Part shown: positions 4,127 through 31,943 of the stretch, one piece after another
Layout: the number at the start of each line of letters is the position of its first letter
Numbering within the stretch: position 1 is the stretch's first letter
Origin: a virus
Reading direction: 5' to 3' (one strand)
Virus record (IMG/VR): IMGVR_UViG_3300042521_001656
Span: 1-31,943 of that record
DNA: 31,943 nt
Notes under the pieces: model-generated
The model's input: only the letters and a program-made list of their open reading frames with translations
Databases searched by the model: none
Told to the model about the DNA's origin: nothing
Program-made: the position numbers and the translations under genes

Positions 4127-4720
4127 TCACCAATGCCCGCCATCAGTGATGGTGAGCGTGGTGTGCTGATTCACCTTCCAGCGGCTGGTGGCCGCATCCC
4201 ACACCAGCAGCGCCTTGTCCGTCAGCCCGGTGCTGTTCACATCGTCCAGGTCGCTCAGGCCCAACGACACATGGCCCACCTGCCCGTTGACGCTTTGCAC
4301 CTGCAGGCTGGGCGGGATTTGAAACGCCGGTGATCCGCCCTCACGCTGCAGCGGAATGCGCAGCTCGCTTTGGCGCTTGGGGCCGATGTCTTCGGTGACG
4401 GCCAGAATCGTTGCCGTCGTGCCTGCAAATGCCGACTGCACCAGCGCCGTGGCGCCCTCTAAATCACCGCCGCCCCAGTCCAACAGCACCACAATCCAGG
4501 TCTGGACAAAAGGGCTGTTCTTGTACTGCTGCCGCTGCTCCAGCTCCGGCACGCTGTTGATCACCACCTCTAGGCCGCTGACCGTGGTGCCGGCCTGCAA
4601 GCCAGCGCCAGGGTCCCGCACCACCAGCGCCGGCGTGGTGCTGCCGTTGCCCAGGGTGTAGGTGCCGAGGTAGGAGGTGAGCGCCGAGGCCAGGGCGCCC
4701 CGCAGAGCCAGGATGTCCAC
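4127..4720 (-). CDS. Tail terminator-like protein with fibre-type C-terminus
   Basis: I start it at GTG 4720 (MDILALRGALASALTSYLG), 16 nt after the upstream stop, giving 197 residues; the open frame runs further upstream but only inside the preceding gene. Residues about 1-125 (SGLEVVINSVPELEQRQQ, FVQTWIVVLLDWGGGDLEGA, PKRQSELRIPLQ) resemble small tail-terminator/tail-completion proteins. The last 50 residues (SVNGQVGHVSLGLSDLDDVN, KALLVWDAATSRWKVN) are a motif usual in cyanophage fibre proteins. No other tail terminator is visible here. The two-part reading is inference; alternatively it is a fibre-base protein. Confidence 0.6.
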   Translation of the reverse strand: MDILALRGALASALTSYLGTYTLGNGSTTPALVVRDPGAGLQAGTTVSGLEVVINSVPELEQRQQYKNSPFVQTWIVVLLDWGGGDLEGATALVQSAFAGTTATILAVTEDIGPKRQSELRIPLQREGGSPAFQIPPSLQVQSVNGQVGHVSLGLSDLDDVNSTGLTDKALLVWDAATSRWKVNQHTTLTITDGGHW

Positions 4721-4736
4721 GCCGAGGCCTTTTCGT

Positions 4737-5417
4737 TCAAGTTGCCCCCAGCAACCGCTGGCTGCTGGCCTCTTGGTTGAGCAGCAGCACACCGGCCTCA
4801 AAATGCACCGGCATGATCCGCTCGGGCAGTTTGATGCGGTAGCGCAGCAGCGGCCGGTCCAGGTCCTGCAGCTCGATCACCTCGCCGCCGCTGTGCCCCT
4901 TGGCGGCCAGAAAGCTGCGCAGGTGCTGCCCTTCCCACACCGGTGCCACCAGCACCACCGAGCGATCTTCGCTCGCTAGCGCCCGCACCTCGGGCATGTC
5001 CGCGCTGCCCTTGGCCTGCTTCACCACCTCGCGCCAGATCGCCACCAGCAGCGGCGGCAGCTTGCCCTCATGCCGTAAGGCCAGGCACACGTGCGCTACC
5101 ACCGCCGGCAGCGCGTCGCTGTCATTGACCTGCTCAGTTGCAGCAAAGAAGCACCAGTCGCGGTAGCTGGTGGCCTTGGCTTTTTTCTGATCGCGGTTGA
5201 TGTTGAACAGCAGGCTGCTGATCTGCGCCCCCTGCAACTCGTTCAGCTGCAGCTCAGCCCGTTGCAGCTCGTGCAACTGCCGGTAGGCCGACAGCACCAC
5301 GGTGGCCTTTTCACGCCCGAAGCTGCGCCGATCGAACTGGCCGGGGAAGGCACGGCACAAGGTCCAAAACACCTCGCCCCAGTTCAGGCGGTTGGATTGC
5401 CATCCACCGGCAGCGGC
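4737..5417 (-). CDS. Frameshift extension of tail-chaperone-like protein (T part)
   Basis: This frame is entered by -1 slippage at 5417-5423 and reads 226 codons to TGA at 4737. It has no ATG near its beginning; only an internal GTG at 5372 could start a 211-residue protein. An in-frame TGA at 5427-5429 closes it just upstream of the slip site, so the open region begins exactly where frameshifting would deliver ribosomes. The fused product is about 404 residues. The content is helical and charged (GREKATVVLSAYRQLHELQR, QKKAKATSYRDWCFFAATEQ). In tailed phages such G/GT pairs are tail assembly chaperones that coat the tape measure before tail tube polymerisation. By sequence alone I do not recognise a family. 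Confidence 0.65.
   Translation of the reverse strand, partial: AAAGGWQSNRLNWGEVFWTLCRAFPGQFDRRSFGREKATVVLSAYRQLHELQRAELQLNELQGAQISSLLFNINRDQKKAKATSYRDWCFFAATEQVNDSDALPAVVAHVCLALRHEGKLPPLLVAIWREVVKQAKGSADMPEVRALASEDRSVVLVAPVWEGQHLRSFLAAKGHSGGEVIELQDLDRPLLRYRIKLPERIMPVHFEAGVLLLNQEASSQRLLGAT
4738..4748 (-). repeat. Junction motif copy (GGGGCAACTTG)
   Basis: The coding strand reads GGGGCAACTTGAACG. Here the motif overlaps the last codons and the stop of the upstream gene (GGG GCA ACT TGA). The next start (GTG 4720) is 17 nt downstream. Confidence 0.55.
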
Positions 5418-5950
5418 TTTTTTATCTCATCCTCTGATGGCGGTGCCGCGCTGTCAGGTTCGGCAGCGGTGCGCTCGGCTTCAAAGAAGGCAAAGAGCGC
5501 TTCCATCAACGGCTGCGGCAGCTTGACCGTTTCGGCCATGGTCCACTCGGGCCGCTCCAGCCGGTGCTGAATCAAGGCCGTCACGCTGGCCAGCATGCGC
5601 CGGCGCCCGCGCTCCACCCAGCTTTTGGTCAGTGCTGCCACCTCCGGCAGATATTGCAGCCGGATTGCGTCCTGCTCTGCGACCATCTCTTTGCCCAAGG
5701 CAGCGGCCTCCACCAGGGCAAAGGCTTCGGAAACGCTGATCTGCTGCTCTGCGCTGATGCGCTGCGCCAGCTTGGCCGCCAGCACCACCGACGATTCCTC
5801 TTCATCGGTGAGATCACTGACGGTGATCACCTCGCCCACCTGCAGCGAACCCAGTACCGGCAGTTCAAGGACGCCGGTGGCTTTGGTGCCGATCCGTTGC
5901 CGCTTGACCTTCTGCGGGGCTACGACAAAGGGCAGATCCAGCGTGCTCAT
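5384..5950 (-). CDS. Tail-chaperone-like protein (G part), frameshift donor
   Basis: A 188-residue protein whose ATG overlaps the stop of the scaffold-like gene (ATGA). The N-terminus (LDLPFVVAPQKVKRQRIGTK, LPVLGSLQVGEVITVSDLTD) resembles the start of phage tail assembly chaperones. The rest is helical (LAAKLAQRISAEQQISVSEA, WVERGRRRMLASVTALIQHR). The C-terminus is Pro/Asp/Glu-rich and contains EIKKPLP, where ATA AAA AAG supplies the slippery site. Ribosomes that do not slip stop at 5384. In siphoviruses this pair usually sits just before the tape measure; here the tape measure lies about 6.5 kb upstream in transcription order. Chaperone identity is inferred from the frameshift architecture. 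Confidence 0.65.
   Translation of the reverse strand: MSTLDLPFVVAPQKVKRQRIGTKATGVLELPVLGSLQVGEVITVSDLTDEEESSVVLAAKLAQRISAEQQISVSEAFALVEAAALGKEMVAEQDAIRLQYLPEVAALTKSWVERGRRRMLASVTALIQHRLERPEWTMAETVKLPQPLMEALFAFFEAERTAAEPDSAAPPSEDEIKKPLPVDGNPTA
5389..5423 (-). promoter_or_regulatory. Programmed -1 ribosomal frameshift signal
   Basis: Read on the minus strand: slippery heptamer A AAA AAG (5423-5417) in the correct phase (ATA AAA AAG), then a 7-nt spacer CCGCTGC (5416-5410), then a hairpin with 5' arm CGGTGGAT (5409-5402), loop GGCA and 3' arm ATCCAACCG (5397-5389), eight pairs with one bulged A. The heptamer is the one used by E. coli dnaX, and the spacer length is in the usual 5-9 nt range. 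The -1 frame is open for 226 codons from this point. Confidence 0.8.
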
Positions 5951-6654
5951 GAGCCCAGCCCGAAGCTGATCTTGTCGAGGGCGCTCATGCCCTGCAGGCT
6001 GCCGGCAATGGGGTTGCCGCTGCCGCGCATGCCACCGCCGTGGCCATTGCTGGTGGGGGCAAAGAAATGGCCGTAGACCGGGTGGGCTTTGAGCTGCTCC
6101 AGGTAGGCCACCGGGGCCATGGGGTCGCCGTTGTCGGTGAGCATGGCGTCGCCGTTGGCATTGGTGACCACCACCTCACCAGCGTCGGTGACCTTGAAGC
6201 GGCTACCAACCGCGCCCATCAGCGCATCGAAATAGGTGGTGCCATCGTCGGCGCCGCCGCTGCGGCCACCGGCCACCTGAAAAGCATTGGCCAGGGCTTG
6301 GCGGCGATACAGCTCCGACTTTTCGGCCAGCGCTTCGGCCAGCTTCTGGTCTTTGACCTTGACCTGCTGCAGGGCTTCGGCCTTGGCAGCCTCGGCCGCT
6401 TCTTTGATGCGCTGATCCATCTCAGTCCTCAGGCGCTCTTCACGCTCTTGGGCTTCTTTGATGTTGCGCAGTTGGTCGGGGTCAAGGCCTTGCAGCTGCT
6501 GCTCAATGGCCTGCAGGCGCCGCTCTGCGGCCTTGCGTGCTTCGCGCTCCTTGGCCAGGGCCTCCAGGCCCGGCTGGTTCAAGGGCTCAATTGAGGCTTC
6601 ATTAGCGCTAGCCGTTGGTTCGGGCGCTTGCGGTTCGGCGTTAAGTTCAGCCAT
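5947..6654 (-). CDS. Scaffold-like coiled-coil protein
   Basis: I use ATG 6654 (MAELNAEPQAPEP); in-frame TTG codons just upstream are less likely. The 235-residue product has a disordered, Glu/Pro/Ala-rich N-terminus. A long charged coiled coil follows at roughly residues 30-125 (EALAKEREARKAAERRLQAI, LRTEMDQRIKEAAEAAKAEA). The globular C-terminal part (RFKVTDAGEVVVTNANGDAM, PVAYLEQLKAHPVYGHFFAP) is followed by a Gly-rich end. This layout is typical of phage capsid scaffolding proteins, which guide capsid assembly and then leave. A scaffold usually lies directly before the capsid gene; here the chaperone pair and fibre cluster intervene. Its stop overlaps the next ATG by 4 nt. Confidence 0.6.
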   Translation of the reverse strand: MAELNAEPQAPEPTASANEASIEPLNQPGLEALAKEREARKAAERRLQAIEQQLQGLDPDQLRNIKEAQEREERLRTEMDQRIKEAAEAAKAEALQQVKVKDQKLAEALAEKSELYRRQALANAFQVAGGRSGGADDGTTYFDALMGAVGSRFKVTDAGEVVVTNANGDAMLTDNGDPMAPVAYLEQLKAHPVYGHFFAPTSNGHGGGMRGSGNPIAGSLQGMSALDKISFGLGS

Positions 6655-6688
6655 ACAGGCCAACAACTACAAGCAACGCTAACGACGT

Positions 6689-7930
6689 TCAATTAACGAT
6701 CCAATAAAGCCGGTTCAAATAGCGCGTCACGTCGCTGTAAGCAAAGGACGGGCGATTGGGTGATTCGCGGAAATAGACAGGGCCGCTGGTGGTGTATTGC
6801 GTCGAGCCCAGCGATGGAATGGATGCCAGCGGCGGGCTGATGGGGTCGGCCTCCATGGCCAGCTGATCAGGCTCAGGCAACCCTGAAAGGTCCAGCAGTT
6901 CAGCACGATCGGTCAGGTTGCTGGCGCTGTATTCACTCCAGGTTGAAGCAACCTGCGTGCCAAGCAACCCGTACCCCGCGCAGCTGGTCCATTCAGCGCC
7001 CAGATCGCTCAACTCGTAGTAGCTCGATCCATAAACACGCTTGTCTGCATCGCGGCTGTAGCCTTTGAAAAAAGTGGCAGCGACGCGGGCATCAGCATTT
7101 TGGTTGCCGATGCTGAACAATGAAGGATGGGCAATGCGAAATGGCTCAAAGCTGCCCGTTAATGGATTGGACAACAACGGCAACCCTGAGTTGCTTTGTG
7201 AATAATCCCCAGCTGCCGCGCCATAGTTATCAAACAAGGCCCAAGCTGCAAGACCGCAGCTTTTAAACGGATGAGCAGCTGGCAAACTGGCCACCACGGC
7301 CTCTTTGTATCCAGCGTAAATCGCGTTGTATTGGGCGACATAGCTAGTTGAGGTGGCCCCAGTCACGCTCAAACTGTGGGAGTAAAGCGGTGCCCTGCCC
7401 TGCGTGATGTCACCGGTGGCCAGATCAATGCCAACCGTCAGCACGTCATAGACGCTGGCAGAGATCACACTGGCTTCGCTGAGTGTTGCGGTGGTGTCAG
7501 GCAGTGGCGTGCCAGGGAAGCTGGTGCGGTAGCTGACGCTGGCATTCCCGATCACCAGCGAAGTGCGCACCATCGTGCAATACAGCACCCCGTCTATCAG
7601 CTGCTCAAAACCTTGGGCAGCGCTGTTGTAGCGCGTGGCATTCCAGCTGCTGGCTGTGATCGTTCGATTTGCCACCAACAGCACCCGCTGAATCATTGCC
7701 GCGACAATTCCAGGGTCAGCCTCGCTGGCTTCTGGCGCAGGGCCTATCTCCCATGGCTTGTAGCTGGCCACCTGGCCATCGCTGCCGGTGTGAACGGTGA
7801 CCGTGCGCAAGGTTTTGATGTTGGTGCTGGCGGCGTAGCTGTCAAACACCTCGGTCACCATGTAGACGGGCACGAGCTTGGCCCCGCGCCGTCGTGCCCC
7901 GTAGCGGTACCGCTCCCTAGGCCTGACCAC
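6689..7930 (-). CDS. Phage structural protein of unknown function
   Basis: A 413-residue protein that I do not recognise. The GTG start at 7930 overlaps the small gene before it by 14 nt; an internal ATG at codon 24 (MVTEVFDSYAAS) is an alternative. The first residues are strongly basic and Tyr-rich (VRPRERYRYGARRRGAKLVP). The rest is Ser/Thr/Ala-rich with many aromatic residues, and has beta-type stretches (VLYCTMVRTSLVIGNASVSY, YDVLTVGIDLATGD). The C-terminus ends TRYLNRLYWIVN. No signal peptide or membrane segment is evident. It lies between tail genes and the scaffold-like gene, so a tail or baseplate-associated role is likely. Confidence 0.65.
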   Translation of the reverse strand: MVRPRERYRYGARRRGAKLVPVYMVTEVFDSYAASTNIKTLRTVTVHTGSDGQVASYKPWEIGPAPEASEADPGIVAAMIQRVLLVANRTITASSWNATRYNSAAQGFEQLIDGVLYCTMVRTSLVIGNASVSYRTSFPGTPLPDTTATLSEASVISASVYDVLTVGIDLATGDITQGRAPLYSHSLSVTGATSTSYVAQYNAIYAGYKEAVVASLPAAHPFKSCGLAAWALFDNYGAAAGDYSQSNSGLPLLSNPLTGSFEPFRIAHPSLFSIGNQNADARVAATFFKGYSRDADKRVYGSSYYELSDLGAEWTSCAGYGLLGTQVASTWSEYSASNLTDRAELLDLSGLPEPDQLAMEADPISPPLASIPSLGSTQYTTSGPVYFRESPNRPSFAYSDVTRYLNRLYWIVN

Positions 7931-9249: not shown

Positions 9250-11718
9250 TTAGCTGAGGTTGCCGCCCAAGCCCAGGCCTGCGCTGAACGTCTCCACCAA
9301 CAGCCAGCGCTCGGTGGTTTCAACCAAGCTGCGCACCTGCGGGCTGATCTCTTGCACCGCTTCCAGCTGCGTGCGCAATTGCAGCTCAGCGGCGCCCATG
9401 TTGCGGGTGATGCCCAAGGGCACCAGCTTGGACTCCAGCTCCAGCCGCACCTGCAAGGTGGTCTCACGGATCAGCTTGTAGGCCGTGGCCAATGACACCG
9501 GCGTCTGCTGCACAGGGAACACCTCGGCCCCGTTGGTCGGCAAGCTGTCGATCAGCGTGGCAATCGCGCCGCTGTCGCTTTCGTCCACCGGATCGTTGAG
9601 CACCGCGCTGTTGAGCGGCGGCTGGCTGCCGTTGTTGACCACTGCCGGTGCCACCGGCAGCGCCGTGGTGCCAGGGGCAACCGGGGTCCAGCGCGGCCCG
9701 TTAATGTCCCCACCGGCCAGGCCCCAGTAGAGGGCATCAGTCGAGACAATGCAGCTGTTGGCATCAAAGGCCCAGCTGGTGCCATTGCTGCGGTAAGTGG
9801 CCGTCAGGCCGTTATTGCTCAGGTGAAATGCTGCGAGCGGCGGGGTGGGAAGCTGGCCCAGGGCAGTGGTGACCTGCAGCCCAAGGCGGTGGCCCAGCAG
9901 CAGCAGGTTCTGCTCTTCGGCATAGCGGGCAGCAGCTGTTTCGGCATTGCCCTTGCTGATGCTGCCGTCATCGTTGACCACATCGTCTGGCAGGAACGGC
10001 ACACCAAAGCTGTTGGCCTTGTTGGAGCGCTGGGCATTGTTGTTGCCCACCTGGATGCGGCTACCGCCCTGAATGACCACATCGGAGGCCTGCACCGGTG
10101 CCAGATAGTCGGGCACGGGCTTGGGGTCGTTGTCGTCAAACTCATCACGAGTGGTGATCAGATGGTCTTCAAGGACAAGGGTGAAAAACTGCTGCAGCAG
10201 CAGGTTGTAGTTGAAGCTCGCGTCTTGCTTGATTTTTGTCGCTGCTGCGGCCAAGGCCTGCTGGCCCATTTGCGTCAACCCGTAAGCCACAAAGACCCGC
10301 TTAAATTCTTTGACCGCCGTGCCGCTGTAGGCGTAGTCGATCTGGGTTAGCTCTTTGAGCCCTTTGCCGCTGGGGATGCCACCGAGTTTGGAGTAATCCG
10401 GCACGCCAATCCGGCCCAGCGCTTCTTCAAAGGACATTTGTTCGCGGCTCTCCTCTCGCGTCTTGCGGTAGGTGGGCAGCTTGGGCAGCAGCGTGATCCG
10501 CATGGTGTCGCCACCACTGGGGTTGCTATACAGCGGGCCGCTTTCCAGGCTTTGAATGGCAGAGTCAATCTCCTGGTCAATCTGCTGCTGCTCTTCGTCG
10601 CTGAGCGGCGGCGGTGGAATTTCTTGAAACTCGTAAATTTCAGTTTTGCCGCAGGTGATTCTGACGTTGGCCAGTTGCATGGCCGTTTGCCGTAAGGCTT
10701 CTGCTGCGCCATCTTGACCGGCCAGATCTTTCTTTTTGGCCGCGTTGATGTAGTCCTGGACAATTTGGCTGTTGATCTTGACCAGCTGCTCAGTCTTGTC
10801 GGTGCGTCGCTCAATGACGCGGTTATCCGGTTCAGCAGTTAGCTCAGCCGTGGCAACGGTTTCGGTGACGGCAAAGGTGTCGCTGGTTTGGTCGTAGTAA
10901 GAGACCTTGATGGTGGTCGTGGTTGACAAGCTGGAGGCATCCCAGCTGGCACCAAACTGGCCATAGGTGCCGTTCTCCACCATGAACCCATCGGTGTAGA
11001 CCGTGTTCAGCGGCTTGGGCTTGTCCCCTTCAATCTGTTGCGCCTCGCCACTGCCCACCGGCGCTTCGGTGAAGTCCAGACCCCCTGCGTTGGGGTTGAG
11101 GTCCAGCACCTTGTCAAAGGTCACCACCGGCCCGCCCAGGCTCAGCTCCCCGTAGCTCTGCACCTGCAGCACGTTGTCGGCGTCCAGGTAGCCGTAGCGC
11201 CCGACGCTGGCCAGGATGTCGCTGATCGTCTCGATGTAATCCGGGCTCTCCAGTGCCGGGATCTGCTTCGGCAAAGACCAGCTGCCCAGATTGCCCAGGG
11301 TGATGCCGCAGCGGGAAGCCAGCAGCACCAATGCCTCACGCAGGTCTAGCGCTGAGGCCAGCTTGGGCAGTCGGCCATTGAGCGCATCCACCAGGGCGCT
11401 ATTGACCGTGCCGCCGCCTTTGCCCTTCTGAAACGCCAGCTCATTGGCAATCTGCAGCTCGGTCTGATTGCTGAGCGGGTTGGCAAACGCCTGGGTCACC
11501 TTGAACAGGCCACGCGGGAAGCGGGCCACACGATCACCATCGGGGGTGACGTAGGCCAGCTTCACTTCGGTGCCATGGGCCGGGGTGATCAGCCCAGCAA
11601 TCACCAGATCGCCGGTGGTGTAGATCAACCCCTGGCCTTGGATGTGATCATCGCGGATTGAGCCGGAGATCACCGGGCCCAGGTTGCAGAGGATCTGGGC
11701 GCGAAGGTCGAGCACCAT
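9250..11718 (-). CDS. Tail hub/tip protein (Tal-like)
   Basis: An 822-residue protein starts at the ATG in the TGATG overlap with the distal tail gene. The N-terminal 330 residues (LVIAGLITPAHGTEVKLAYV, RFPRGLFKVTQA, LLASRCGITLGNLGSWSLPK, SPDYIETISDILASVGRYGY) look like the tail-hub fold that caps the tube and carries fibres or a cell-wall-acting module. The middle has a helical segment and a QQQID repeat. The C-terminal part (LLLGHRLGLQVTTALGQLPT, AYKLIRETTLQVRLELESKL) is specific to this phage. Position right after tape measure and distal tail protein supports the hub role. I see no peptidase motif. Confidence 0.7.
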   Translation of the reverse strand: MVLDLRAQILCNLGPVISGSIRDDHIQGQGLIYTTGDLVIAGLITPAHGTEVKLAYVTPDGDRVARFPRGLFKVTQAFANPLSNQTELQIANELAFQKGKGGGTVNSALVDALNGRLPKLASALDLREALVLLASRCGITLGNLGSWSLPKQIPALESPDYIETISDILASVGRYGYLDADNVLQVQSYGELSLGGPVVTFDKVLDLNPNAGGLDFTEAPVGSGEAQQIEGDKPKPLNTVYTDGFMVENGTYGQFGASWDASSLSTTTTIKVSYYDQTSDTFAVTETVATAELTAEPDNRVIERRTDKTEQLVKINSQIVQDYINAAKKKDLAGQDGAAEALRQTAMQLANVRITCGKTEIYEFQEIPPPPLSDEEQQQIDQEIDSAIQSLESGPLYSNPSGGDTMRITLLPKLPTYRKTREESREQMSFEEALGRIGVPDYSKLGGIPSGKGLKELTQIDYAYSGTAVKEFKRVFVAYGLTQMGQQALAAAATKIKQDASFNYNLLLQQFFTLVLEDHLITTRDEFDDNDPKPVPDYLAPVQASDVVIQGGSRIQVGNNNAQRSNKANSFGVPFLPDDVVNDDGSISKGNAETAAARYAEEQNLLLLGHRLGLQVTTALGQLPTPPLAAFHLSNNGLTATYRSNGTSWAFDANSCIVSTDALYWGLAGGDINGPRWTPVAPGTTALPVAPAVVNNGSQPPLNSAVLNDPVDESDSGAIATLIDSLPTNGAEVFPVQQTPVSLATAYKLIRETTLQVRLELESKLVPLGITRNMGAAELQLRTQLEAVQEISPQVRSLVETTERWLLVETFSAGLGLGGNLS
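9256..9268 (-). repeat. Junction motif copy (GGGCGGCAACCTC)
   Basis: The last codons of the hub gene (GGC GGC AAC CTC AGC TAA) carry a C-for-T variant of the junction motif. The next start (ATG 9236) is 19 nt downstream. Because it is inside coding sequence, chance or codon constraint cannot be excluded. Confidence 0.4.
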
Positions 11719-12467
11719 CAGACCTGCTCCACGCTGATGCTGACGGTCCAGATCGTGGTCTTGAGGCCGCTGACGATGCGCGTTTCAGCGTTGGCCGTAG
11801 GAGCGCTGATCGGCCACCAGTCGCCCGTTGCGGGGGTGCTCTGCACAGTGGTGGCCACCCAGTTGCGCAAGGTGGTAAAGGCGGCCTCGTTGGCCACGGT
11901 GCCGGTGATGGTGCGCACGCGGGAGCTGCGCAGTGGCCCTTGGATGTAAGGGAACCCCCCAGCGGTGCGCTCCAAGGTCGGCAAATCGTCGAGCGTTTCC
12001 ATGGGCTCGGTCAGGGTGATCACCACCCCGCCGAGGGTGACGGTGCCCAGGTCTGGCGCCAGCCCCAGATCAGCAGCAGCGCTTTTCTCCAGCGCCTTTT
12101 TCGCTGCCGTGAGCGCTTGGTTGGCATCGACCAAAGTGGCCGACACCTGCACGTAGGCGCCGAGCTGCTCAAAACTGGGGGCCTCGGTAAACCAGCAGGC
12201 CACACCGCTGGCGCTTAAGCCATTGGCACTGGCTGACAGGGAGACGGTGCTGCCGACGCTGTTGGTGGCGATGCTGTCGCCATCGCCTTGGCGGGCAGCC
12301 CACCAGTTGTCAAAGATGCTCTTGAACTGCCCCAGCTGGGTGGCATCCAGCAGGCCACTGACGGTCCAGTTGCGGGCCACCAGGCCCAGCCGCACGTCGT
12401 CGGCTTCATAGCCAAACGGTTGGGCGGTGAGATTTTTGATCTGGAGGCCGTTGATGGTGACGCTCAT
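11718..12467 (-). CDS. Distal tail protein-like
   Basis: A 249-residue protein follows the tape measure with a 1-nt gap and precedes the hub with a 1-nt overlap, the classical place of the distal tail (Dit) protein that links tube and hub. It starts MSVTINGLQIKNLTAQPFGY. Two beta-type halves (RLGLVARNWTVSGLLDATQL and SSRVRTITGTVANEAAFTTL) each have a Trp-rich turn (NWWAARQGDGD, TGDWWPISAP). This hints at an internal duplication, although identity is too low to be sure. No catalytic motif. The call rests mostly on synteny. Confidence 0.6.
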   Translation of the reverse strand: MSVTINGLQIKNLTAQPFGYEADDVRLGLVARNWTVSGLLDATQLGQFKSIFDNWWAARQGDGDSIATNSVGSTVSLSASANGLSASGVACWFTEAPSFEQLGAYVQVSATLVDANQALTAAKKALEKSAAADLGLAPDLGTVTLGGVVITLTEPMETLDDLPTLERTAGGFPYIQGPLRSSRVRTITGTVANEAAFTTLRNWVATTVQSTPATGDWWPISAPTANAETRIVSGLKTTIWTVSISVEQV

Positions 12468-12468
12468 G

Positions 12469-14775
12469 TCAACGCGAGGTCCCGTTCACCACTGCCCGAC
12501 CTGAGTTGCCGTTGCCGGTGCCTGAGTTGTTGACGGTGACGTTGACCACTGGCGGCTTGCTGGTGTTGGTGACGATCTGGGAGAGGAAGGTGTTCATCTG
12601 GGAGAACTGCTGACTGCCGTCGATCACGGTGTTCACCTGGGCCTGAAAGGCGGTGGAGAGGTCGCCCCGCGCTTGGGCAGCGCCATTGAGTTGGTCCTTG
12701 AAGTTCTGGGCGGACACGGCAGCCGCGCTGGCATAGCCAGCTTGTTGGCGCAGCTGTTCGTTGACATCGGCCTGCAGCTGAGTCTGCTGTTCTGTGCTGC
12801 CGTACTGGGCCTGGCCGTTGAGGGCAATCAGGCGCTCTTGCGCGAGGCGCTCACGGGCAGCGGCCTGCTGCTCTTGAAGCAAGCTGCTGCGCAACCCACC
12901 CAGGCGCTGCTCTTCGCTGTTGGTCTGGCGTATCAGGTCCAGGTTCTGCTGGGCCAGTTGCACCTGCCGCTGGCTTTCCGGTGTGCCCTTGTCGGCGTTA
13001 GCGGCCTGGGCCTGCAGCAGGGCGATCTGGGCTTCAATGTCAGCCCGCTTGCCAGCAGCAGCTGCCTTCTGCTGCTCAAACGCCAAGCTGGCCTGCTGGG
13101 CCTGCTGCTCAGTGACCAGGGCGCGGGCCTTGAGGTCAAACTCGGCCACGGTTTGGTTGAACTTGGCCTGGCCGTACTGCAGCTCCAGCTGGCGGCGCTG
13201 GGCGTCGTTGGCGGCCAGGGCCTGGCCCTGCTGCAGCTCCTGATCCAGCAGGCTCTTAATGGTGTTGGAGCGATCAACGGCGGCCTGGCTGCGGGCGGCA
13301 TTGATCTGACCCACCAGCTGGGTCTCTTGGGCATAGAGGCCCAGGCGGGCCTCTTGCGTCTGAAGACCTTGTTTGTCAATGCCCAGGCTGGTGAGCTGTT
13401 CATTGCGCAGCCTTGCCTGAGCCTGCTTTTGCTGCATTTGGCCTTGCAGCGCAGCGCTATTGGCCGCCAGCAGTTCGCCGGTACCGTCCTTGTATTTCTT
13501 GCGAAACTCATCGGCCAGGCCAGGCAGCCGCGCTAGCACCCGCTCAAAGTCCTTCGGCATTGCAAAGGCGATGTTGTTGATGCCTTCGAGCTTCACCGCA
13601 TCGGTGAACAGGGCCCGCGCTTGCTTGCCGGTGAGCTTGTATTGATCCTGCAGCTGCCGCAGCGCCACCACCGCTTGGGTCCCCTGCTCGGGAATGATCC
13701 CCAGGGCATTGCCCAGCAGGCCGCCGCCCAGGCCCAGCTTGTTGGCTTCAAAAACGATGCCAACGCCTTTGAGCACATTGGTCAGCGTTTTGATTTGCTC
13801 AATGATGGTGGGTAGCAGGCTTTCACCAAACGCAATCTGCAGCTCTTCCCAAGCGTTGCCGAGCTTGGCAAACTGCTGCGCGCTGGTCTCCACGCCACCA
13901 GCACCAGCGGTCAGCTGGTTAAGGCCATTGGCCAGTGCCGGGAAAAATTGCTGAGCGGTCAGCTGCCCCGATTCGACCAGCTTGTTGAGTTGTTGCTGGG
14001 TGATGCCCAGGCCCTTGGCAGCGGCCGCAAATGCAATCGGCAGCCGCTCACCCAACTGCCCCCGCAGTTCTTCCATCTGCACGGTGCCTTTGGACGCCAC
14101 CTGCTGAATGGCCAGCAGGCTGCCGCTGACCGCATCGCTGCTGAGGCCCAGGGCCTGACCGGCCTTGGCCACCGCTTGGAACACTGCCCGCTGTTGCTGT
14201 AGCGGGATGCCTGCGGCGGTGGATGCGGCCGTAAAGCTGCCGAAGTCGTTGGCCAGTTGCTTGTAGGAGAGGCCCAGCTGATCGGCCAGCCCTTTGGTGA
14301 ACTGCAGCGCCCCAGCGGCGCCTTGAGGGCCCAGGGTGTTCTGCAGCTTGCGGGTGATCGACTCAAACTCAACCGCTGCCTGCACGGCATCCTTAATGCC
14401 CACGGCCACACCGGCAAAGCTCAGGCCGATGCCTGCTGCGCCGGCCAAGTTGCCCAGGCCACCAGCGATGGACGGGCCCAGGCGATTGCTGCCACCTGCC
14501 TCAGCTTTTTGACGCTCCTGCGTCGCCTTGCGGATTTCCTTCTGCAGCTCCCGGTATTTGCTGGAGCCGATCTCAACCAGCCGGATTTCTTCCTTCAGGC
14601 TGGTGATGCGCGTGTCCAGCGCCACCAGGCTGCCCTTGCTGGCCTTGGTCCCCAGCGCATCCTCAATGGCCGAGCCTGCGCGGGTGGCCAGGTTGCGCAC
14701 CTGTTCAATGCCGGCCCGAAACGCGGTCGTGTCCAGCAGGACATCAAACGTTGCCCGCCCCAGCGATTCCGCCAC
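12469..14775 (-). CDS. Tape measure protein
   Basis: A 768-residue protein starts with GTG 14775 (MAESLGRATFDVLLDTTAFR). Residues about 150-300 hold the conserved tape-measure N-terminal domain (DQLGLSYKQLANDFGSFTAA, AVSGSLLAIQQVASKGTVQM, EELRGQLGERLPIAFAAAAK). A hydrophobic segment lies near 105-127 (LAGAAGIGLSFAGVAVGI). The remainder is long Gln/Ala-rich coiled coil (QAQARLRNEQLTSLGIDKQG, QELQQGQALAANDAQRRQLE). It sets tail length and is ejected with the genome. At about 0.15 nm per residue the tail would be near 115 nm, a siphovirus value; this is an estimate. The chaperone-like pair expected just upstream is absent here. Confidence 0.9.
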   Translation of the reverse strand: MAESLGRATFDVLLDTTAFRAGIEQVRNLATRAGSAIEDALGTKASKGSLVALDTRITSLKEEIRLVEIGSSKYRELQKEIRKATQERQKAEAGGSNRLGPSIAGGLGNLAGAAGIGLSFAGVAVGIKDAVQAAVEFESITRKLQNTLGPQGAAGALQFTKGLADQLGLSYKQLANDFGSFTAASTAAGIPLQQQRAVFQAVAKAGQALGLSSDAVSGSLLAIQQVASKGTVQMEELRGQLGERLPIAFAAAAKGLGITQQQLNKLVESGQLTAQQFFPALANGLNQLTAGAGGVETSAQQFAKLGNAWEELQIAFGESLLPTIIEQIKTLTNVLKGVGIVFEANKLGLGGGLLGNALGIIPEQGTQAVVALRQLQDQYKLTGKQARALFTDAVKLEGINNIAFAMPKDFERVLARLPGLADEFRKKYKDGTGELLAANSAALQGQMQQKQAQARLRNEQLTSLGIDKQGLQTQEARLGLYAQETQLVGQINAARSQAAVDRSNTIKSLLDQELQQGQALAANDAQRRQLELQYGQAKFNQTVAEFDLKARALVTEQQAQQASLAFEQQKAAAAGKRADIEAQIALLQAQAANADKGTPESQRQVQLAQQNLDLIRQTNSEEQRLGGLRSSLLQEQQAAARERLAQERLIALNGQAQYGSTEQQTQLQADVNEQLRQQAGYASAAAVSAQNFKDQLNGAAQARGDLSTAFQAQVNTVIDGSQQFSQMNTFLSQIVTNTSKPPVVNVTVNNSGTGNGNSGRAVVNGTSR

Positions 14776-15621: not shown

Positions 15622-16116
15622 TCAGGGGCTGGGGCTAGGGGTCGGTGCGGTGGCTTCGGTGTAGGTGTAGCTGCCGTAACCCTGCAGGGTGAACGACACG
15701 GTGGCGATGCCGCCGGCTTCGATCGACTCAGAAAAGTCGGTGATGATGCCGATGCCGCTGTGCTTCTCCACGGTCGCCACCGAAGCGCCGGGGTCTGGCG
15801 ATTCGCGGTACCACTTGACGTATTGCCCGGTGGGAGCGTCCAGGGCGGCGTCCTTGAGCAGCTTGTAGCCCGCGTCCACGGTGTCCAGGTTCATGGACAT
15901 CGGGATGCTGTAGCTCTGGCTAGTGGCCACAGCTTTTTGGAAACCACCGGTGGTGCCGTAATCGGTCACCGTCTGGGTTTCGGTGGTGCCCTCAATGCCT
16001 GCGTTGGTCAGGTTGAGGATTTCGGTCAGGCCGGTGCTGCTGCTGGGGTGGGTGTCACTGGCAGAGGTGGCGTCGGCCATCCACAAGCGGTAGCCGATCG
16101 CGGACATAAACGCCAT
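15622..16116 (-). CDS. Major tail tube protein
   Basis: A 164-residue protein starts MAFMSAIGYRLWMADATSAS. It is Ser/Thr-rich and beta-rich (GIEGTTETQTVTDYGTTGGF, SQSYSIPMSMNLDTVDAGYK, SGIGIITDFSESIEAGGIAT, VSFTLQGYGSYTY), the usual signature of TP901-1/HK97-type tail tube proteins, including the closing VSFTLQG strand. It ends in a TPSPSP tail. A strong terminator sits just upstream at 16168-16198 and a junction motif lies between terminator and start. The gene therefore either has its own promoter there or depends on read-through. It precedes the neck genes, which is not the common order. Confidence 0.75.
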   Translation of the reverse strand: MAFMSAIGYRLWMADATSASDTHPSSSTGLTEILNLTNAGIEGTTETQTVTDYGTTGGFQKAVATSQSYSIPMSMNLDTVDAGYKLLKDAALDAPTGQYVKWYRESPDPGASVATVEKHSGIGIITDFSESIEAGGIATVSFTLQGYGSYTYTEATAPTPSPSP

Positions 16117-21692: not shown

Positions 21693-23090
21693 TCACCAGA
21701 TTGCCCCCTGGCCGTAGGAGACAGCTGCACTGGTGGCGATGGTGGGGCGTGAACGCAGCCAGGCCAGGCCTTGGCTTAGGGCATCTACTTGGTCGTCGTG
21801 GGCAGCGTTGGGAAAGGCGGCGGCCTCTTCGATGAGGGCTGAGGCCCAGCTGCTGCGCTCCGGCAGATAGACGTTGCCGGCTTCGATCAGCGGGGAGATG
21901 GCGGCAGCGCGGGAGAACTTGCCCCCCTGCGGGTTGACGGCGATCAGGCCGGGGATCTTGGATTTGAGCAGGGAGATCACCGCCGGGCCGTTGGCCTTGT
22001 CTTCCACCACGGTGGCAACGGGTTTGTAGCGGTTGAAGGTGTTGACGATCGCGGGGATGGTTTCGGTGATGTCGAGCCGATCGCGGATGCAGTCCAGCAG
22101 GTAGAAACGGCTGCCGAGCTGCCCGATCACTAGGCCGACCACGTAGTCGGTGTTGGGTCCGTCTTTAAACGTGAGGTCCCAGGAGGTGATGACGCGCTCT
22201 AGCTGCGGCAGCTCGCGGTAGGTCTGCCACCAGGAGCGCTTGAACAGCCCACCGGCTGGCGGTGCGGGGCGCTGCTGAAAGAGGGCATTGAAGCCGTATT
22301 CACCCAGTACGCGGCGGCGATCCTGCAGCGCGTCGAGGTCGTAGCGCTCCGGGCACAGGGCCTCGCCGGGGGCACGGCCAAGCGGGTCGTTCTCTTCTGC
22401 GATGGCCGGCAGATTGATGACGGTCCAGTTGGGCGCGTCGTCGGAGCTGAGGATGCGGCCGGCGAGGTCGTCTTCGTGCCAGCGGGTCATCGTGAGCACG
22501 ACGGCGGCGCCAGGTTCGAGGCGGGTGTAGAGGTCGTCGCGGTACCAGTTCCAGACGCGTTCGCGGTAGGCCTCGGATTCGGCCTCTTCGCGGGACTTCA
22601 CCGGGTCATCAATGCAGACCAGCGTGGCGCCGAGGCCGGTGATACCAGCGCCGACGCCAACAGCACGGAAACCACCACCGGCGGGGGTTTCCCATTGCTC
22701 CACGGCTTTGCGGTCGGAGCTGATCTCCATGCGCTGGGCGGCGATGCGGCGTGCCTGGCGGGAGAAGGTGTTGGCGAGGGTTTGGGAATAGGCGGCGATC
22801 ACCACGCGCTGCGTGGGGTCTTGTTCCAGGCGATAGACGGGGTAGCGGATCGTGCCTTGGTGCGATTTGCCGTGGCGCGGTGGCACGGTGACGATCAGGC
22901 GCTTGAGGGTGCCAGCGGTGATGGCGTCGAGGTAGGAGCGGATATGGGCGAGGTGGGGCCAGTCCCAGTTGTCATCGGGTGAGACTTCGCGCAGCCAGGT
23001 GTGAAAGGACTGAGGCGTGCGCGGCTGCGTTGCGGTATCCAGAAAAGCCGTGATGGGCTCGGGCTTGCAGAGACCGGCTAGCAGGCTCAT
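21693..23090 (-). CDS. terL: Terminase large subunit
   Basis: A 465-residue protein. Walker A VPPRHGKS at 69-76, Walker B TLVCIDDP near 156-163, a coupling-type segment LTMTRWHEDDLAGR at about 199-212, and RNase H-type nuclease residues starting with SWDLTF (D305) and ending with AHDDQVDALSQGLAWL near 435-450. It drives ATP-dependent DNA packaging at the portal and cuts the concatemer. Start ATG overlaps the 42-residue gene by 4 nt. The stop lies inside the region that begins the sigma-like gene. Confidence 0.95.
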   Translation of the reverse strand: MSLLAGLCKPEPITAFLDTATQPRTPQSFHTWLREVSPDDNWDWPHLAHIRSYLDAITAGTLKRLIVTVPPRHGKSHQGTIRYPVYRLEQDPTQRVVIAAYSQTLANTFSRQARRIAAQRMEISSDRKAVEQWETPAGGGFRAVGVGAGITGLGATLVCIDDPVKSREEAESEAYRERVWNWYRDDLYTRLEPGAAVVLTMTRWHEDDLAGRILSSDDAPNWTVINLPAIAEENDPLGRAPGEALCPERYDLDALQDRRRVLGEYGFNALFQQRPAPPAGGLFKRSWWQTYRELPQLERVITSWDLTFKDGPNTDYVVGLVIGQLGSRFYLLDCIRDRLDITETIPAIVNTFNRYKPVATVVEDKANGPAVISLLKSKIPGLIAVNPQGGKFSRAAAISPLIEAGNVYLPERSSWASALIEEAAAFPNAAHDDQVDALSQGLAWLRSRPTIATSAAVSYGQGAIW

Positions 23091-30545: not shown

Positions 30546-31943
30546 ATGAGGGTTGGGCTGTACGCCAGGGTCTCCAGTGAGAGCGATGAGCAAGAAAATG
30601 CCCTGACCCAGCAGTTAGATCGACTGCGTGCAGCTGCCGTTGGCCACGAGGCCATCGAGTTTGTCGAGGTGATGTCGGGGACACGGGATGACCGGCCCCA
30701 GCTGGCGCGTCTGATGGCCGCTTGCCAGCGCGGGGAGCTGGATCGGGTCATCTGCACCCGCCTGGACCGGCTCAGCCGCTCAATGGCCAATGGCGCAGAA
30801 CTGCTGACCTACTTCAGCGCACCTGACACGCCCAGCCTGCTGGCCTTGGACGACTCGCTGGACCTGGCCACGCCGAGCGGGCGGCTGATGGCCAACATCC
30901 TGATCAGCTTTGCGGTGGCTGAGAGCGACCGGCTGAGCGAGCGGGTGCGCCATGGCAAAACCTTTCACCGCAAAAAATTGGTGCCGTTGGGGCCGTATGC
31001 CCCGTTTGGCTATCGCTACAACGATCAACGCGACAACTATGAATTGAATCCAGAGACAGCGCCGCAAGCCAGAGCCTTGGTTGATCGTTTTTTAAAAGAA
31101 CAAACGATCAGGCCGCTGTTGCGGGATGCCGTCAAGATACCGGGCTGCAGTTTGCACAATCCCTGCAGTTTTCGTCGGTGGATTGGCAACCCAACGCTGG
31201 CTGGTTATCGCGTGTATGGCAGAACCTATGCCGTGCGAGATAGCAAGGGAAAATTGACCAAGCGGATGCGGCAACCTTGGGACTGGGCAGAAATCTATCC
31301 TGACTGTCATCCGCCATTGATTAGCAAAGCGCAGCATCAGCAGATCGTTAAGATCTTGTCTAATCATCGCAACCGAACGCGCAGCGCTTTAAGTCCAAAG
31401 TATGTGGGCAAGTTGACCGGGCTGGTGTCTTGCGGAAATTGCGGCAAGACCTTGTATTACCAGCACGTTGAAGACAAGACTTACAGGTATTTGTTTTGCC
31501 ATGGCAACGATTGCGTTGGCGCCAAAAAAACTAGAATCCGTGCCGACGTGGTGGAAGCCGCGATCTGGCGCGAGCTGCGGCAGTACAAAGAACAATTGCT
31601 GGCCCTTGCGCTGTGCAATCACCCCGACGCTCACGGCGATTGCAGCAGTGAACAAGCGCTGACGCAGCAGATCAAAGAGCTGGAGGCACAAGGCGACCCG
31701 GATTTTGCTGAGGCGATTGCCAAGAAAAAGGCCCGGCTGGCCAAGTTGATTGAAAAGCGGATTACCAGCAAGGTGACAGCGCAGGAGCGCAATGCCATGG
31801 AGCAGGCTTTGGCCGGCGATCACTTCTGGGAGATGGCGCAAGAGGATGCCAGCCGCTGCCGGGCGTTTTTCTCTGAGCTAGTGGAGCGGGTGGTAGTGCG
31901 CGGCCATGAAGTGGAGTCGATCAACCTGAGGCTGCCCAGCGGG
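30546..31943 (+). CDS. Large serine recombinase (phage integrase), 3' end outside window
   Basis: ATG 30546 starts MRVGLYARVSSESDEQENAL. The frame is open for 466 codons to the window edge. The N-terminal resolvase domain has nucleophile S10 in YARVSSE and the conserved stretches VICTRLDRLSRSMANGAELL, TPSGRLMANILISFAVAESD, RLSERVRHGK. The recombinase domain follows (PFGYRYNDQ, RWIGNPTLAGYRVYGRTYA). Then come a zinc ribbon from about residue 297 (SCGNCGKTLYYQHV, FCHGNDC) and a helical coiled-coil region (DFAEAIAKKKARLAKLIEKR). It inserts and excises the phage genome at short att sites. It resembles XisF-type cyanobacterial recombinases. No att core is recognised. Confidence 0.93.
   Translation, partial: MRVGLYARVSSESDEQENALTQQLDRLRAAAVGHEAIEFVEVMSGTRDDRPQLARLMAACQRGELDRVICTRLDRLSRSMANGAELLTYFSAPDTPSLLALDDSLDLATPSGRLMANILISFAVAESDRLSERVRHGKTFHRKKLVPLGPYAPFGYRYNDQRDNYELNPETAPQARALVDRFLKEQTIRPLLRDAVKIPGCSLHNPCSFRRWIGNPTLAGYRVYGRTYAVRDSKGKLTKRMRQPWDWAEIYPDCHPPLISKAQHQQIVKILSNHRNRTRSALSPKYVGKLTGLVSCGNCGKTLYYQHVEDKTYRYLFCHGNDCVGAKKTRIRADVVEAAIWRELRQYKEQLLALALCNHPDAHGDCSSEQALTQQIKELEAQGDPDFAEAIAKKKARLAKLIEKRITSKVTAQERNAMEQALAGDHFWEMAQEDASRCRAFFSELVERVVVRGHEVESINLRLPSG

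Follow-up and report, generated by a model that had tools for sequence, protein, structure and literature searches.

The overlapping gene pair on the minus strand of IMG/VR virus record IMGVR_UViG_3300042521_001656 is very probably a siphovirus G/GT tail assembly chaperone pair expressed by programmed -1 ribosomal frameshifting. The window, i.e. the whole stretch of DNA analysed here, comprises 31,943 nt. The frameshift itself is ordinary and well supported; the tail assembly chaperones that carry it form a new branch, and the gene order is unusual. The elements that define the pair are as follows.

5384-5950, minus strand: G-like open reading frame with a zero-frame product of 188 aa; an open frame with homologues in 80 loci
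5417-5423, minus strand: slip heptamer A_AAA_AAG, in phase with G, assigned from sequence and conservation
5427-5429, minus strand: TGA that closes the -1 frame directly upstream of the slip site, read from the sequence
4737-5426, minus strand: T-like -1 frame of 226 post-slip codons, predicted to be entered by frameshifting to give GT; an open frame matching phrog_34388, with relatives that match PF06223 and phrog_337

At the slip site the G frame reads ATA AAA AAG, with the G stop ten codons later, and the -1 frame is open from 5426 to 4740. The predicted GT fusion consists of 178 + 226 = 404 aa, next to 188 aa for G alone, in agreement with the 188 and about 404 residues given in an earlier note on this DNA. 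That note had also described the in-phase A AAA AAG, which was recovered at 5423-5417 of the minus strand (the strand was absent from the note), and a -1 frame bounded by TGA 5429-5427 and running 226 codons, which was reproduced from the sequence. Its statement that the downstream frame lacks an ATG start holds as well, with no ATG near the start of the -1 frame; the first possible T starts in the window are GTG 5372 and TTG 5360, codons 17 and 21 counted from the slip. Among the 32 minus-strand open reading frames checked, this is the only site with A_AAA_AAG or G_GGA_AAG in phase. No other in-phase X_XXY_YYZ in them has both a -1 stop at most two codons before it and a -1 frame that extends far past the end of the gene. 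The heptamers at 21927 and 27785 are also accompanied by long -1 frames, but their upstream stops are distant.

According to the proposed mechanism, most ribosomes would make the G protein, and a minority would slip back one base at A_AAA_AAG, such that two lysine tRNAs re-pair with AAA AAA and translation yields GT. Both A_AAA_AAG and G_GGA_AAG are highly shift-prone in E. coli (PMC5009743); that slippage takes place in the window's own host, and how efficient it would be there, we infer.

Relatives were gathered by profile search with the T alignment, with one scanning motif, [AF]N[IL]NRDx[KAT]K, located about 70 codons past the slip. This search yielded 80 loci; once S-CBS2, PSS2 and the window are added, the loci with both open reading frames number 80. 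T lies in the -1 frame in all 80, and each overlap carries an in-phase AAAAAAG or GGGAAAG, so that the conservation of the heptamer in relatives, proposed earlier as a check, was found throughout. Many of these loci are near copies, which reduce to 40 clusters at 90% T identity and still to 10 at 50%; the two heptamer types divide the 40 clusters into 21 and 19, with about half of the family using GGGAAAG. An in-phase slip copy is present in the overlap of every one of the 40 clusters, compared to 2.5 expected from a synonymous-codon shuffle of each G gene and 0.2 expected when all G codons are shuffled. The G homologues in the 80 loci are about 25-69% identical in alignments. The in-phase slip heptamer is shared by the isolates S-CBS2, S-CRES1 and PSS2; in S-CRES1 A_AAA_AAG is followed by TAA, and a G stop directly after the heptamer occurs in S-CBS2 and four contigs (L095, L096, L097 and L099) as well. 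The genome contigs searched for relatives gave none, and PSS2 T as query retrieved no viral contig.

A second sample was anchored on the tape measure gene and shares some contigs with the first. All 21 pairs in it have T in the -1 frame; 18 carry the same heptamers, one has G_GGA_AAA (L179), and two (L140 and L145) were read as G_GGG_GAG. In the latter two (L140:6372-6720 and L145:6890-7133) there is no X_XXY_YYZ, and TTG GGG GAG (GGGGGAG) stands at the corresponding place. A similar motif, GGGGGAA, has been reported for actinophages (PMC10885494).

Two other routes to a T product have to be weighed against ribosomal frameshifting. T might be translated independently from GTG 5372 or TTG 5360, the heptamer being incidental; both codons are indeed found near the beginning of the -1 frame, G-rich bases precede GTG 5372, and the earlier note had named initiation at this very codon, should it account for all product, as one finding that could overturn the frameshift. 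However, neither start is conserved across the 40 clusters, GTG 5372 not being shared by relatives, and the first possible T starts are scattered from codon 17 to codon 107 after the slip, often inside the conserved domain. Past the G stop and ahead of the first possible T start, the pN/pS ratio is 0.44 (15 close pairs pooled, 193 codon comparisons), and 0.27 in the later part of T; because of the former value, the stretch before the first T starts behaves as translated. With purifying selection on this stretch and a heptamer class that is invariant in relatives, independent initiation is highly improbable.

The six consecutive A at the window site could also invite slippage of RNA polymerase on the A run instead of the ribosome. 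Against this speaks the half of the family that uses GGGAAAG, which is without a long homopolymer, as do the repeated interchange of the two types and the X_XXY_YYZ phasing of every site in the main samples. When heptamer type was mapped on the T tree, with slip-derived residues removed, it changed nine times, a count that is not exact since some branches are long, and at least five of these changes are forced by well-supported branches; no non-slippery state was seen among the 40 clusters on the tree. Tandem slipping of two tRNAs explains both heptamers, whereas a polymerase slipping on an A run leaves GGGAAAG unaccounted for; there is thus very little to recommend transcriptional slippage as the source of GT. 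The programmed -1 frameshift, as the earlier note had read it, is supported by its conservation in relatives. A_AAA_AAG and G_GGA_AAG (L024-L102) are separated by three base changes, yet interchange at least five times, and this repeated exchange provides a natural series for slip-site evolution.

Two elements flanking the heptamer were considered as candidate stimulators.

5389-5409, minus strand: possible downstream hairpin with a putative role; present (z -1.06), not conserved
5427-5436, minus strand: GAGGATGA, purine-rich, a putative internal Shine-Dalgarno stimulator by virtue of its anti-Shine-Dalgarno pairing

The hairpin had been described as part of the signal, and its 7-nt spacer CCGCTGC and 8-bp stem with a bulged A (5409-5389) do exist, but they are neither conserved nor better than chance. 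The stem register first noted has a stability of -9.6 kcal/mol, and the most stable one, GGTGG.TGG/CCA.CCGCC, reaches -11.0 kcal/mol, a gap of 1.4 kcal/mol; 34 of 200 shuffles fold equally well. In near-identical contigs (e.g. L002, L004) one base of the noted stem is altered to give an A.C mismatch, and the alternative register survives. Across the 40 clusters the mean z of the downstream stem is -0.39, and the stems differ in sequence and place, none being shared; other parts of the gene reach a local stability as high as the peak at +2 to +6 after the slip. The hairpin was therefore rejected as a conserved stimulator on these three grounds. Joint conservation of slip site and hairpin, put forward earlier, thus stands for the slip site (40 of 40 clusters) and falls for the hairpin, with no shared stem. 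With regard to the Shine-Dalgarno candidate, anti-Shine-Dalgarno pairing is strongest immediately 5' of the heptamer throughout the family, but no stronger there than in synonymous shuffles. Most relatives have the purine stretch, but it codes for an acidic motif that is itself conserved, and the two roles cannot be told apart from these data.

The identity of the two proteins was approached through family and fold searches. The only PHROG or Pfam match for either protein of the window is that of T to phrog_34388 (function unknown); G belongs to no named family in PHROG or Pfam, and T has no Pfam match above threshold. The link of the window T runs via its relatives. With an E limit of 0.1, 36 of 38 of these match PF06223 (Phage_tail_T), which represents minor tail protein T in Pfam; the best E is 5e-6, and most of the matches are weak and under the curated cut-off. 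Furthermore, 9 of the 38 match phrog_337 'tail protein'. A bridge is provided by the canonical chaperone pair of contig L171 (phrog_344 + phrog_337), whose T matches the T family of the window (1e-10), phrog_337 (4e-12) and phrog_39 'tail assembly protein', and whose G matches phrog_344 'tail assembly chaperone'. Like the window pair, it has T in the -1 frame; the overlap of the L171 pair reads CTG GGA AAA. Its end coincides with the beginning of the tape measure open reading frame, a relative of the window's tape measure gene following directly. Unlike the window pair, it has a G that falls in a named family, phrog_344, that the window G does not match.

The AlphaFold model of the window G (pLDDT 89) consists of a beta-hairpin followed by helices. 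Fold searches of the PDB with G and T gave no match, and the viral fold library returned for G one unnamed 181-residue protein at 2.5e-11, which has the length of S-CBS2 G and may be that protein; named chaperones appear in this list only without significance. G therefore has no significant match to a known chaperone family by sequence or fold, and PADLOC reported nothing. T accordingly belongs to the family on sequence grounds, whereas G is placed there only by its position, the frameshift and its partnership with T. The PF06223 matches of the T relatives, together with the L171 bridge, therefore point to a G/GT tail assembly chaperone pair, the identity which the earlier note had proposed and which conservation and T-family homology support. 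The chaperone role of the pair is a presumed one: by analogy with lambda, G would coat the tape measure protein, while the T portion of GT would recruit the major tail protein.

The special feature of the system is its position in the genome, for which three further genes are relevant.

4127-4801, minus strand: next gene of the cassette; its relatives lie downstream of T in both gene orders
12469-14775, minus strand: tape measure protein gene, upstream of the pair (Pfam TMP_3, 6e-29; PHROG tape measure families)
15622-16116, minus strand: major tail protein gene (PHROG major tail protein families; Pfam Phage_tail_2, 9e-5)

As in lambda gpG/gpGT, the open reading frames overlap, the second lies in the -1 frame and an X_XXY_YYZ occurs near the end of G; lambda's own slip type, G_GGA_AAG, is the one used by about half of the window's family (PMC5009743). 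In contrast to lambda, where the order is V-G-T-H and G/T stands directly before the tape measure gene, 6.5 kb separate the tape measure gene of the window from the downstream G; moreover, the window G has no detectable similarity to lambda G, and the T profile gives no direct match to lambda T. The customary, although not defining, slot between the major tail protein and tape measure genes is not occupied by the pair. The usual siphovirus placement does not apply here: the tape measure gene lies upstream of the pair, which has a scaffold-like gene as its neighbour.

This arrangement is shared by many relatives: in 25 of 39 relative clusters G likewise comes after the tape measure gene or the two genes next to follow it, and among 20 pairs of the tape-measure-anchored sample 16 come after the tape measure gene and 4 before. 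On the other hand, the pair precedes the major tail protein gene in S-CBS2, S-CRES1, L095-L097, L099, L101, L115 and L141, the tape measure gene being further on where seen. A G/T cassette upstream of the tape measure gene in S-CBS2, S-CRES1, PSS2, L115, L140, L141 and L145 amounts to a rearrangement among related phages. Relatives of the gene at 4127-4801 follow T in both orders, so the whole cassette may have been relocated in one piece, or it may have stayed in place during an exchange of the tail block. With the cassette displaced, it may be asked if G/GT needs a place next to the tape measure gene.

Directly before G, and far from the head genes, lies the scaffold-like open reading frame (5947-6666, minus strand; phrog_206, head scaffold). 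Its counterparts include L030:6776-7477 and L022:33375-34139, and the relative in PSS2 is annotated as host specificity protein J. The large open reading frames past the tape measure gene, 6689-7930, 9250-11718 and 11718-12467 (all minus strand), have no PHROG match, and the order of the latter two is kept in most relatives.

It may be argued that the frameshift is real and that the relocated pair serves another assembly step, at the head scaffold or the distal tail, rather than the control of tail-tube length. The adjacent match to head scaffold phrog_206 would fit, as would the position after the tape measure gene in the window and in those 16 loci, and after the tail block in the 25 clusters. 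In the window, however, the interval from the major tail protein gene to the tape measure gene, with its two small open reading frames, showed no other recognisable chaperone, T still belongs to the tail T family, and position need not limit a diffusible protein; such a change of function is consequently improbable. A broader proposal is that of a large lineage of uncultured phages, probably cyanobacterial ones, in which the cassette was relocated past the tape measure gene and further tail genes, with the order of chaperone and ruler reversed or a new assembly step acquired, and the slip strictly kept, toggling among a few shift-prone sequences. We consider this speculative and rather unlikely, and retain the G/GT tail assembly chaperone pair as the preferred reading.

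Among the closest known systems are those of the cyanosiphoviruses S-CBS2, S-CRES1 and PSS2, with homologous G and T that, in S-CBS2 and PSS2, are 26-29% identical to those of the window. The slip site is in phase in each isolate, as A_AAA_AAG in S-CBS2 and S-CRES1 and as G_GGA_AAG in PSS2, and in all three, unlike in the window, the pair comes before the major tail and tape measure genes. T is annotated in them as a separate, shorter open reading frame, with no recorded frameshift. A deeply conserved, unannotated frameshift is hereby added to the cyanosiphoviruses, these isolates included; a literature search found no papers joining cyanophage, programmed frameshift and tail assembly chaperone.

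Synechococcus and Prochlorococcus are the hosts of the nearest named phages, and the virus is probably a phage of cyanobacteria. On the opposite strand, a large integrase gene (30546-31943, plus strand) matches phrog_95, with a DNA-invertase-like match at the N-terminus; its product is probably a serine recombinase, and its presence suggests a temperate phage.
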